From: an uncultured Saprospiraceae bacterium
GTDB taxonomy: Bacteria > Bacteroidota > Bacteroidia > Chitinophagales > Saprospiraceae
Assembly: GCA_938018185.1 (NCBI GenBank)
Contig: CALIIW010000252.1
Location: 1 to 57,316, forward strand
Length of the DNA stretch: 57,316 bases
Direction of reading: 5' to 3'
In this document: positions 40,027 to 47,425 of the stretch, one piece after another
How positions within the stretch are numbered: the first letter of the stretch is position 1
Layout of the letters: each line of letters opens with the position of its first letter
Made by a program: the position numbers and the translations under genes
Notes under the pieces: generated by a model
What the model was told of the DNA's origin: nothing
What the model saw: only the letters and a program-made list of their open reading frames with translations
The model's database searches: none

Positions 40027-40075
40027 AGCGCCGTGAAACGCCGAGCTTAGCTGTGAAACGTTGTGACCCAAAAAA
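40027..40075 (-). repeat. Remote, inverted, partial copy of the GxxExxY-flanking repeat
   Basis: AGCGCCGTGAA at the left and GTGACCCAAAAAA at the right are the reverse complement of the left part of the repeats at 45248 and 45447 (TTTTTTGGGTCAC...TTCACGGCGCT). The middle is diverged. The rest of the 458-bp gap 39928-40385 holds the terminator at 39954 and AT-rich sequence with no gene that I can support. Confidence 0.7.
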
Positions 40076-44131: not shown

Positions 44132-45262
44132 ATGAGGGTCCTTGGAATATTTATGTTTTTATTTTGTTACTCCATCAGCTATTCGCAAAATTACCCGATA
44201 GGTCAATTTTCTTTATTCATGGAAGACCCGGACAGAAACGAGCGTCTCGTCACAGCTGAAATGTTTTACCCTGCTCAAGCAGCTGGAGCTAATCAAATGT
44301 TGGCTGATGGGGAATTCCCACTTCTTGTATTCGGGCATGGATTTGTGATGCCTTACACCTCTTATGAAAACGTAAAAGAACATTTTGTAAATGAAGGCTA
44401 TATCGTAATGTTTATAACCACTGAGGGCAGCATTGCTCCAGACCATCAAGAATATGCTAATGATATTGCTTACATGACAGACTACATTGTTGATCAAGCT
44501 ACTAATCCGCAATCCTTTCTCAATGGACATTTCATTCCTAAAGTTGGATTAATAGGTCATAGCATGGGAGGAGGTGCCTCTGTACTTGCCAGCGATCTTT
44601 CTATGTACTTTGAAACGTACATTGGACTAGCACCTGCTGAAACAAATCCTTCTGCCATTGACTATGCCACAAATATAAATTTGCCTGCTTTGATACTTTC
44701 TGGTTCATCAGACGGGGTAACACCGCCTAGTGAACATCATGTACCAATCTTTGAAAGTCTTGCGTCGGAATGCAAAGTTTTTGTGGACATTATTGATGGC
44801 GCGCATTGTTACTTTGCAAATACAGATTTTGCTTGTGACTTTGGGGAACTGGCTGCTTCTACTGGCATTGAAATATCAAGAGCAGAACAGCAACAAATCT
44901 TTTATGATTATGCGACTGGATGGTTAGACTCTTTTTTGAAAGCGATCCCTGGCGCATTGAACGAATTTATTTTTCCAGAAGGAGATGATAGTCGGGTTAA
45001 TTTGATTAACAATTGCATGCTTTCTTCAAATACAAATACGCCACCTTTTGACAAGATATCTGTGTACCCAAACCCCGGGAAAGACATAATTTTCTTAAAG
45101 AATAATCTGAAGGAACAAAAGTATTTATTGTTTGATAGGAATGGGAGATTAGTAAAAGAAGGAATTGTTTTGGATAGGATTGACATTAGTGATCTTTCAT
45201 CCCAAATGTACTTTTTGCATTTGGAGGGTGGAGCCGTTTTAAAATGTATGGTTTTGGAATAA
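44132..45262 (+). CDS. Secreted alpha/beta hydrolase with T9SS type A sorting domain
   Basis: This is a 376-residue exported hydrolase. The signal peptide RVLGIFMFLFCYSISYSQ precedes an alpha/beta hydrolase core similar to chlorophyllase/PAF-acetylhydrolase-like dienelactone-type enzymes: oxyanion region FGHGFVMPY, nucleophile elbow GHSMGGGA with Ser144, acid loop SGSSDGVTPP and catalytic His in IDGAHCYF. Residues about 300-376 are a type A T9SS domain (VYPNPGKDIIFLKNN, LFDRNGRLVKEG). The last codons (CMVLE) and stop lie inside sequence that is repeated again at 45447, so the repeat touches the gene end. The substrate is unknown. It is likely co-transcribed with the asparaginase gene (49-bp gap). 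Confidence 0.88.
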   Translation: MRVLGIFMFLFCYSISYSQNYPIGQFSLFMEDPDRNERLVTAEMFYPAQAAGANQMLADGEFPLLVFGHGFVMPYTSYENVKEHFVNEGYIVMFITTEGSIAPDHQEYANDIAYMTDYIVDQATNPQSFLNGHFIPKVGLIGHSMGGGASVLASDLSMYFETYIGLAPAETNPSAIDYATNINLPALILSGSSDGVTPPSEHHVPIFESLASECKVFVDIIDGAHCYFANTDFACDFGELAASTGIEISRAEQQQIFYDYATGWLDSFLKAIPGALNEFIFPEGDDSRVNLINNCMLSSNTNTPPFDKISVYPNPGKDIIFLKNNLKEQKYLLFDRNGRLVKEGIVLDRIDISDLSSQMYFLHLEGGAVLKCMVLE

Positions 45263-45409
45263 TTTTTTTTGGGTCACGGTGAGGCAGGGCGAAACTCAGA
45301 GGTTCACGGCGCTGCATTCGGTTTTTATAATGCCATTCCTGTATTAATTCCACCTAAGTTGCCGTGAATCGCATCTTCTCGCTGTGGAACGCTGTGAAAT
45401 AAATTCTTA
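45248..45409 (+). repeat. GxxExxY-flanking repeat, copy 1
   Basis: The copy begins ATGGTTTTGGAAT, overlapping the hydrolase stop codon, runs through TTTTTTTTGGGTCACGG and ends GAAATAAATTCTTA. Positions 45301-45358 are identical to 45501-45558 (copy 2, offset exactly 200). Positions 45361-45409 are identical to 46144-46192 (copy 3). It contains many CGCTGTG/CACGGCG-type GC-rich words unlike the surrounding AT-rich DNA. Confidence 0.9.
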
Positions 45410-45446
45410 CTTGCATATTTCTAACCTTATGCTCCTGATTAACTGC

Positions 45447-45606
45447 ATGGTTTTGAATTAATTATTTTTTGGGTCACAGCGAGGCGCGGCGAAGCACAGC
45501 GGTTCACGGCGCTGCATTCGGTTTTTATAATGCCATTCCTGTATTAATTCCACCTAAGCCGTCGTATAGCCCCCCTTAACGCTTTCTGCCAGTGTGAAAC
45601 AAATTC
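45447..45606 (+). repeat. GxxExxY-flanking repeat, copy 2
   Basis: The left part closely matches copy 1, with 58 identical bases at 45501-45558. The right end has diverged (GTCGTATAGCCCCCC...CAGTGTGAAACAAATTC, cited in parts). It lies 65 bp before the GxxExxY start codon. Together with copy 1 it accounts for most of the 408-bp gap 45263-45670; I see no gene in that gap. Confidence 0.88.
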
Positions 45607-45670
45607 AGCGCCCGGCCATTCTAAAAGTTTTAACTATATTCACATAGCTAAAACAAATTTAAATAAAGTT

Positions 45671-46042
45671 ATGAATGAAAATCAAATTGCAACTCTTGCA
45701 TTAGATGTCGCCTTTGACATCCATCGAAATTTAGGTCCAGGTCTTCTAGAATCGGCTTATCAAAAAATAATGATTCACGAATTAAAAAACAAAGGCCTTG
45801 ATGTCAAATATGAATTATACTTGCCTGTTAAATACAAGGACATCCATATTGATTTGGCATATAGAATGGATCTTGTATTAAATGACAAGGTTGTTCTAGA
45901 ATTAAAAACAGTAGAAGCTATTAGGGATGTACATAGGGCGCAAATATTGACCTATTTAAGATTGGGTGGGTACAATCTTGGTTTGATAATTAATTTCCAT
46001 ACTGCTTTGTTGAAAAATGGAATTAAACGGTTTGTAATATAG
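45671..46042 (+). CDS. GxxExxY protein (PD-(D/E)XK nuclease-like)
   Basis: This is a 123-residue protein of the GxxExxY family (PDDEXK_3). The naming motif is Gly24-xx-Glu27-xx-Tyr30 in GPGLLESAYQK. A nuclease-type core follows with Asp67 (YRMDLVL) and Glu77-x-Lys79 (VLELKTVEAI), consistent with a PD-(D/E)XK active site. LRLGGYNLGLIINF comes near the C-terminus. The family's cellular role is not established. It has no signal peptide. It stands alone, bracketed by two copies of a GC-rich repeat upstream and one downstream, which is the strongest clue that it belongs to a mobile or repeat-associated unit. Confidence 0.92.
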   Translation: MNENQIATLALDVAFDIHRNLGPGLLESAYQKIMIHELKNKGLDVKYELYLPVKYKDIHIDLAYRMDLVLNDKVVLELKTVEAIRDVHRAQILTYLRLGGYNLGLIINFHTALLKNGIKRFVI

Positions 46043-46048
46043 TTAGTC

Positions 46049-46192
46049 GTTTTGGAAATAGATTTTTTTTGGGCACAGAGAGCACGGTTCTTTTTCTTGT
46101 TTTAGAAACAATAAGTACTCTTAATATTAATCCCAACTAAGCCGCCGTGAATCGCATCTTCTCGCTGTGGAACGCTGTGAAATAAATTCTTA
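46049..46192 (+). repeat. GxxExxY-flanking repeat, copy 3
   Basis: The copy begins 6 bp after the GxxExxY stop codon with GTTTTGGAAATAG and TTTTTTTTGGGCACAG. Its middle is diverged, and its last 49 bases (46144-46192) are identical to the end of copy 1. It ends 6 bp before the stop codon of the convergent lipoprotein gene. Confidence 0.9.
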
Positions 46193-46198
46193 TCCAAA

Positions 46199-47425
46199 CT
46201 AATCAGGCACTGCAACTGCAATCACCCCTACTCCATTTGTCAACAAAATACTTTCACCATCATCAGCATACAATCTGCAAGAAGTTTCAACTTCTAGCTT
46301 CATGGTTTTTTGACCTGCGGCATTGGCTAAATAAGGCTCAACGCTTTTGACATCAAAATACGCATCATCCGTTTGCTCTCCTTGAGAGGAGGAATAGAAC
46401 TTTCCTGAATCATCTACATACTGTAAATCAAAAGTTGATAAGGCTAACCTAGATCCTTGCTCAATTTCTTCAACCTCATAATCGTAATCTACTTTAGTGA
46501 ACTCCAGTTCTCCATCTGAATCAAATGAAATGATGGTCCCTAAATCAACAGCTGAGAAAATGGAAGTATTACTCGGATTAAAAAACAAAGGTTGTGCACC
46601 AATTTGAGTCTTTTCCGTAATTTCTAGTTCGATAACATGATCATTACTAGTTACTATGGTTTCTCCAGTTGTTGTATTCAATGGGTCTTTGGTAACATCC
46701 CAAGCAATACTAGGAATTATATCCATCCCATCACCGTCTATCTCCATAGAAATTCTAACTTTATTATCCCCCAAATTTTCAAAATTCATGTGCGCATTCA
46801 CCTTTCCTGGAACCGGCACACCATCAGGTACAATAGTGAGTTGCCTTGATTTCCAAGCTAGCTCTAGCTTATTATCTTCATTGATGAAATTTCTAAATAC
46901 TGGATAAACAAATTCTGCTGGCTTTTTATAAATATGTATTGGATCTGCAACAGTAAAGGTAGTTGTGCCATCACCAAAAATCCAGGCGAAGGAAGGTTTA
47001 TCTTCATTAAATATACTATTAAAATTCACTCGATAAACATCCTCTCCCGCGTCAACCTCTAAATCATTCTTAAACTGAAAAGAGGAAGGTGGTAAGGCCT
47101 TTACCAAATCTGTTTTATCTTGCGTATCATAATCTCTCAAAGCAAATCTAAAGGAACCTTCGCAGATTTCATTACAAGATTCTTCGCCGATGTGGCCAAC
47201 AAATGAACTGATATTAAATTGGTCAACTAACCAATCTGTATGCATAAATTTCTGATCAACGCCAGCTTCTAATTTAGTATTTACTCCTTCCAAATCAGCA
47301 CTAAAATGAAAAACTGGGCTGTTGCTTGTTTCTCCAGGAAGCCCTATCTCTTCTCTTTGACAAGAAGTCAAAATAGATATGCTCAGTACGATATAAAATA
47401 GTCCTTTAAGTAGTTTGTAATTCAC
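46199..47425 (-). CDS. Lipoprotein with PKD-type domain in an ECF-sigma operon
   Basis: This is a 408-residue predicted lipoprotein (signal ending SILTSCQ). Residues about 130-185 contain a PKD-like motif (FAWIFGDGTTTFTVADPIHIY, cited as WIFGDGTTTF and PIHIYKK). The rest is beta-rich and unrecognised, ending VGVIAVAVPD without a T9SS domain. It follows the membrane-barrel gene by 12 bp and the sigma factor gene beyond it. It is probably an envelope protein whose expression is tied to that sigma factor. Confidence 0.75.
   Translation of the reverse strand: MNYKLLKGLFYIVLSISILTSCQREEIGLPGETSNSPVFHFSADLEGVNTKLEAGVDQKFMHTDWLVDQFNISSFVGHIGEESCNEICEGSFRFALRDYDTQDKTDLVKALPPSSFQFKNDLEVDAGEDVYRVNFNSIFNEDKPSFAWIFGDGTTTFTVADPIHIYKKPAEFVYPVFRNFINEDNKLELAWKSRQLTIVPDGVPVPGKVNAHMNFENLGDNKVRISMEIDGDGMDIIPSIAWDVTKDPLNTTTGETIVTSNDHVIELEITEKTQIGAQPLFFNPSNTSIFSAVDLGTIISFDSDGELEFTKVDYDYEVEEIEQGSRLALSTFDLQYVDDSGKFYSSSQGEQTDDAYFDVKSVEPYLANAAGQKTMKLEVETSCRLYADDGESILLTNGVGVIAVAVPD

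Follow-up and report, generated by a model that had tools for sequence, protein, structure and literature searches.

A small nuclease-like gene of the GxxExxY family and the short words repeated around it probably form a mobile unit, in which a Cas4/RecB-like nuclease gene is enclosed in inverted, subfamily-specific word arrays and is accompanied by gene-less derivatives; binding and cutting of the words by the protein are inferred. The locus lies in a 57,316-nt stretch of DNA from an uncultured Saprospiraceae bacterium (the window) and exemplifies a general pattern. Whole units come and go at conserved sites, with arms that match the protein. Derivatives without the gene, with paired arms or in some cases only one arm, are dispersed through the same genome. 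Furthermore, among 246 genomes of the phylum, an excess of dispersed word pairs over background is confined to those with the GxxExxY family.

The GxxExxY gene (45671–46042, forward strand) codes for a 123-amino acid protein and sits between a secreted hydrolase gene on its left (44132–45262, forward strand) and a convergent gene on its right (46199–47425, reverse strand). Its identification in a first-pass annotation as GxxExxY nuclease-like is upheld by matches to TIGR04256 (130.7 bits, cut-off 35) and PF13366 (129.5 bits, cut-off 22), both covering nearly the whole protein. PF13366 is the sole match to the enclosed gene, with no Y1_Tnp, and no cas genes adjoin it. We also considered and rejected a phage origin because a PHROG search produced no match and a scan of viral contigs recovered no relative.

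The protein model (pLDDT 97) meets the expectations for a PD-(D/E)XK nuclease fold with the D...ExK residues, although nuclease activity is only predicted. A Foldseek search with the model returned nothing at an E value of 0.001 or better; its best matches were SSO0001 (Cas4), lambda exonuclease and the Holliday-junction resolvase Hjc, and a second structural comparison to SSO0001 gave a Z score of 9.7. No solved structure of the GxxExxY family was found by sequence. Residues E27, D67, E77, K79, Q91 and Y95 do not vary across a diverse alignment and include the motifs E77-x-K79 and Q91-xxx-Y95, an arrangement that we take to resemble the RecB/Cas4 QxxxY group. PADLOC also reported a weak Cas4 match.

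The repeats around the gene are arrays of 7-nt words, mostly spaced by 10 bp and pointing at the gene from both sides. Sequence comparison delimited three of them on the forward strand: a gene-less bipartite unit (repeat A, 45264–45409), a left arm adjoining the gene (repeat B, 45460–45610) and a copy 3' of the gene (repeat C, 46051–46192). The left arm of repeat A has words at 45275, 45285, 45295 and 45305 (10-bp spacing) and its right arm has inverted words at 45380 and 45390. The left arm of repeat B reads TTTTTTGGGT, followed at exact 10-bp intervals by CACAGCG (45475), CGCGGCG (45485), CACAGCG (45495) and CACGGCG (45505); its right arm is degenerate. Repeat C has a diverged, degenerate left part with one CACAGAG (46074) and an inverted right arm (words at 46143, 46163 and 46173). 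The segment 45256–46195 contains 10 CRCRGCG words, whereas 500 dinucleotide shuffles averaged 0.17 and never exceeded 3, consistent with the initial impression of a repeat rich in GC-rich words unlike its surroundings. A single further CRCRGCG word in the rest of the window (40029) marks a gene-less single arm of the same type (40027–40075, reverse strand).

Repeats A (45265–45406) and B (45465–45606) align without gaps at an offset of exactly 200 bp, with 82% identity over 142 nt and an identical run of 58 bp starting at 45301 and 45501, respectively. The last 49 bp of repeat C (46144–46192) are identical to 45361–45409 of repeat A. These figures reproduce the offset and identical runs of the first-pass annotation, which had described A and B as a direct tandem repeat. 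The repeat is not a plain direct one: each copy is an inverted unit in two parts, a left arm and an inverted right arm separated by a spacer. The similarity in repeat C also starts slightly farther from the stop codon (46042) than the 6 bp originally given, at about 8 bp. Repeat A is a mosaic whose left half resembles B and whose right half resembles C, the composition that a gene-less derivative would have. The stretch of approximately 25 bp that surrounds the hydrolase gene's end is also duplicated in A/B.

The source genome carries four intact GxxExxY genes and one remnant. The repeat had been thought private to its locus, yet window-type gene-less arms are dispersed at about 10 further places in the genome and similar arms flank a second GxxExxY gene. 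The latter, on contig C277, encodes a close paralogue (89% identical protein) and has words of the window type on either side, outer ends that resemble those of the window unit (TTTTTGGGTCAC and GTGAAATAAA(A)TTCTTA) and unrelated neighbour genes. Words of the CGCAAAG type lie just outside its CACGGCG arm (L002, 1290–1390), and the site looks as if a newer unit had entered or replaced an older one. Inverted CACAATAGG words bracket the gene on contig C257, and GGATTTTA words bracket the remnant on contig C161. Both the source genome and genome G056 have more than one GxxExxY subfamily, with arms that differ. In genome G022, a GxxExxY gene with CGGAT-word arms (L064/L065) is part of a stretch of approximately 1.3 kb duplicated at two sites; the copies are 90% identical overall, identical across the gene and arms, and run into a downstream open frame.

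Most of the GxxExxY genes sampled elsewhere also lie between inverted word arrays. We collected 80 loci from titled genome records, all limited to the LGPGLLES subfamily, from Bacteroidota, Verrucomicrobia, Planctomycetes, Acidobacteria, Chloroflexi, Gemmatimonadetes, Cyanobacteria, Proteobacteria and a Methanothrix MAG, with the caveat that MAG contigs may be misassigned. Inverted flanks were significant (upstream versus inverted downstream match beyond all 40 shuffles) for 40 of 75 GxxExxY genes but only 3 of 102 neighbouring control ORFs from the same loci; an earlier, smaller sample in 60 relatives had yielded 12 of 29. The common word is CRCNRAG (for example, CACAGAG, CACAAAG and CGCAAAG), of which the CRCRGCG of the window is a variant. 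Runs of CRCNRAG pointed at the gene in 47 of 75 upstream and 56 of 75 downstream flanks; the opposite orientation was seen in 13 and 14, respectively. A word run in any orientation was near 15 of the 102 control genes. Some GxxExxY copies have no recognisable arms.

The word type follows the protein subfamily. Arms of CRCNRAG words were present at 91 of 131 genes of the GPGLLE type versus none of 21 of the GFQE type (p = 4e-10). Conversely, a TGTCTGRA tag, often followed by RGATT-like words, marked 10 of the 21 GFQE-type genes, only about half, versus 2 of the 131 GPGLLE-type genes (p = 1.5e-8). CGGAT words accompanied 3 of 5 GYGFLE-type genes versus 2 of 131 of the GPGLLE type. These p-values are optimistic because part of the same loci had served to define the tags and words, and the sample contains a disproportionate number of GPGLLE genes. 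The matching of words to subfamilies is the strongest sign, as far as sequence can tell, that protein and repeat belong together.

We identified occupied and empty alleles of GxxExxY units at the same site at three loci: the window, a second locus of the same genome and a site in another genus. The stretch 45263–46198 of the window is missing in the congener G001, where the orthologues of the neighbouring genes are separated by 31 bp rather than 936 bp. This could be a gain in the source genome or a loss in G001, and the polarity is undecided because neither a target duplication nor a recent insertion was seen. The C277 site is clearer. It is empty in G003, G004 and G005, whose flanking deaminase and YigZ-like genes are adjacent (approximately 30 bp apart), and it has a GxxExxY gene in both G000 and G001, from different lineages and with different words. 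In the other genus, a G083 unit (AAAC-CACAGAGGTCACAAAG-gene-CTTTGTGCCCTCTGTG-GTT) occupies the same site in G110, G156 and G219, and partly in G094, but is absent from G231, G121 and G125, which have contiguous flanks. Together with the flanking arrays and the subfamily-matched words, the empty sites support the early proposal of a candidate mobile unit. Both findings that the first-pass annotation had named as refuting it, an absence of the repeats from other GxxExxY genes and a vertically conserved locus that lacks empty sites, are contradicted.

A gene-less element of G083 and G110 is likewise missing in G125. No target duplication was readable at this site or at the other compared sites, where empty and filled sequences are too diverged. 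Other loci are common to congeners, so some units are old; the collection used for these comparisons had one genome per species. In G156 (L302), the site that corresponds to L277 has, in place of a word element, another inverted repeat (AATCCTGACAGGTTAG...CAAAACCTGTCAGGATT). Relatives were rare on plasmids (8 of 72,556 records, all with less than 60% identity), and the one inspected, from Bacteroides finegoldii, had ordinary genes on either side.

Twenty sampled sites in G056 illustrate the gene-less elements. They are approximately 105 bp long, some of them partial, and the complete ones read AAC-W-N2-W-N5-W-N2-W-loop-inverse-GTT, where W is CAC(A/T/G)AAG. The GxxExxY gene of the same genome (L046) has the same four-word arms. 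In gene elements, the variable word letters agreed between arms at 0.77 versus 0.52 for random pairing, and the spacers at 0.46 versus 0.41. Gene-less elements had values of 0.73 versus 0.72 for word letters and a spacer agreement of only 0.21, although both samples were small (34 gene and 26 gene-less elements). Hence the word, and not a perfect stem, is preserved. We rejected a perfect hairpin or RNA element, as spacers and the fourth word letter had not kept complementarity between arms; an Rfam search gave sub-threshold matches only. A preference for convergent sites was also rejected, with 14 gene-less elements in tandem, 6 in divergent and 5 in convergent positions and 4 inside ORFs.

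The abundance of word pairs tracks the GxxExxY family across genomes. We counted pairs with the pattern CCRCRRAGNNCRCRRAG in 246 genomes of the phylum that were at least 95% complete. The mean was 7.4 (0.2 for the reversed control) in the 120 genomes with GxxExxY versus 1.0 (control, 1.0) in the 126 genomes without it, and at least 10 copies were present in 26 genomes with the family and in none without it. None of 5000 family-stratified permutations of GxxExxY presence reached the observed difference, though stratification corrects only partially for relatedness. As each gene contributes at most about two copies through its arms, the copy numbers of genomes such as G239 (45 copies, one gene) cannot be explained by gene arms. 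Some genomes have the words but no detectable GxxExxY gene.

We infer that the GxxExxY protein would recognise its own words as sequence and cut the DNA that bears them. Movement of the unit may follow directly from cutting, or the resulting breaks may be repaired with another copy as template. Break-and-copy between word elements is the likeliest, if inferred, route of transfer, because it would explain the mosaic repeat A, the tandem copies and the two GxxExxY lineages at one site. The protein could also transpose the unit directly or be assisted by a Y1 enzyme. Evidence against a mobile unit includes the lack of biochemistry, the failure to see a target duplication or recent insertion, the old shared units, the armless genes, the untagged half of the GFQE-type genes, the gene-free words and the frequency of Y1 enzymes.

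Y1 transposases are common in the same set of genomes, and the elements could be moved in trans by an enzyme other than GxxExxY, with a Y1 (IS200/RAYT-like) transposase as the likeliest candidate and GxxExxY as an accessory processing nuclease or a passenger. The mean of 8.1 word pairs in genomes with both families compared to 3.1 with GxxExxY only is consistent with such help, although the latter group has only 17 genomes and the comparison is weak. Yet Y1 alone brings no excess (0.7 pairs in 71 genomes versus 1.4 with neither family) and the word type tracks the GxxExxY subfamily, which makes this explanation unlikely.

We regard as quite unlikely that GxxExxY is a chromosomal nuclease for defence, repair or end processing whose arms are sites of binding or regulation that ordinary recombination has spread. 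Its fold near Cas4, lambda exonuclease and Hjc would suit such roles, as would a gene-less element of G083 (L282) located where L299, L300 and L301 have terminator-like hairpins between two genes. However, units of gene plus arms are missing as wholes from conserved sites, and the gene-less copies are dispersed without preference for convergent sites. A chance or passive association of small genes with repeat-rich intergenic DNA could draw on the scattering of word runs between genes and on the 15 of 102 control genes with a run nearby in some orientation. It is contradicted by the inversion and orientation of the words relative to the gene, the subfamily matching and the co-occurrence across genomes, and we consider it highly improbable. 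The mobile GxxExxY unit with its own words remains our preferred reading.

We also observed inverted arrays of tandem short words around four-helix-bundle genes (TIGR02436; L092–L121, for example, L117, L094 and L112), with words of another style (CTAGCNN, GGTTTCA and AGGTTAG). The flanks matched beyond all shuffles in 21 of 29 genes (22 of 29 in another run), with few scorable control ORFs (0 of 3 and 0 of 7). Judged from their sequences, these genes and arrays look like a sister system. Among 60 relatives, word counts correlated with both GxxExxY (rho 0.40) and four-helix-bundle genes (rho 0.35), and the two gene families are intercorrelated. More tentatively, GxxExxY genes could represent a widespread class of mobile elements in which a small Cas4-like PD-(D/E)XK nuclease, reading subfamily-specific short words, is the sole enzyme. 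The gene-less offspring of this class would then include many of the word repeats found between genes in environmental bacteria, and TIGR02436 would be a parallel class with the same architecture and other words.

GxxExxY is a common family of unsettled function. Its association with cognate words assigns it a definite role that can be tested and provides a possible source of the many short repeats found between genes. Should the nuclease move the unit on its own, a further chemistry would join those of the mobile-element enzymes. Three papers mention GxxExxY by name or accession, and we found none on its function in the open-access literature (subscription papers and preprints were mostly outside the search), and no description there, including work on RAYTs and MITEs, of a system of GxxExxY genes and word arrays. 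The matching words, the gene-less copies and the clean absence of whole units from some relatives point to an undescribed kind of mobile element.

Several known systems share some of its features. Like autonomous insertion sequences and their MITEs, GxxExxY units comprise a gene-bearing element and gene-less derivatives with common ends, but they lack a DDE, HUH, serine or tyrosine recombinase gene, and no target duplication could be read at their diverged sites. Homing endonuclease genes are also lone nuclease genes in units present or absent among relatives, but GxxExxY units have inverted word arms, dispersed gene-less copies and unrelated sites. The fold and motif layout are those of Cas4/RecB-like nucleases (SSO0001, Z 9.7; weak PADLOC match to Cas4), yet the GxxExxY protein is much shorter and the window gene has no cas genes beside it. 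The TAACTGA heptamers of Bacteroidetes and Cyanobacteria are, like the GxxExxY arms, short intergenic words, tandemly repeated and of unexplained origin (PMC4679880). Unlike these arms, they are nearly all direct repeats, and the abstract reports no associated nuclease (PMC4679880); a link between the two is our inference. Word arms (AACTCTGTGTTCTCTGTGGTG) are also present in PCR primers that lie next to an invertible promoter of Bacteroides fragilis, which makes it probable that an arm is located there (PMC3090145).

The closest parallel is with REP/REPIN sequences and RAYTs (TnpA-REP). REPs are short inverted repeats scattered over a genome; a single dedicated gene lies between copies of them, many further copies have no gene, and the pairing of protein and repeat is family-specific (PMC3733652, PMC3116915, PMC8266576). 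GxxExxY units share the dedicated enzyme gene, the dispersal of its flanking repeats without the gene and the pairing. However, RAYTs are described in those sources as Y1/HUH enzymes and REPs as 20–40-bp palindromes with a GTAG or CGTC tag (PMC3733652, PMC3116915, PMC8266576), whereas the GxxExxY unit has a predicted PD-(D/E)XK nuclease and arms of approximately 7-nt words with unconserved spacers. By analogy, the best reading is that GxxExxY units are organised like REP/RAYT systems but built from unrelated parts.
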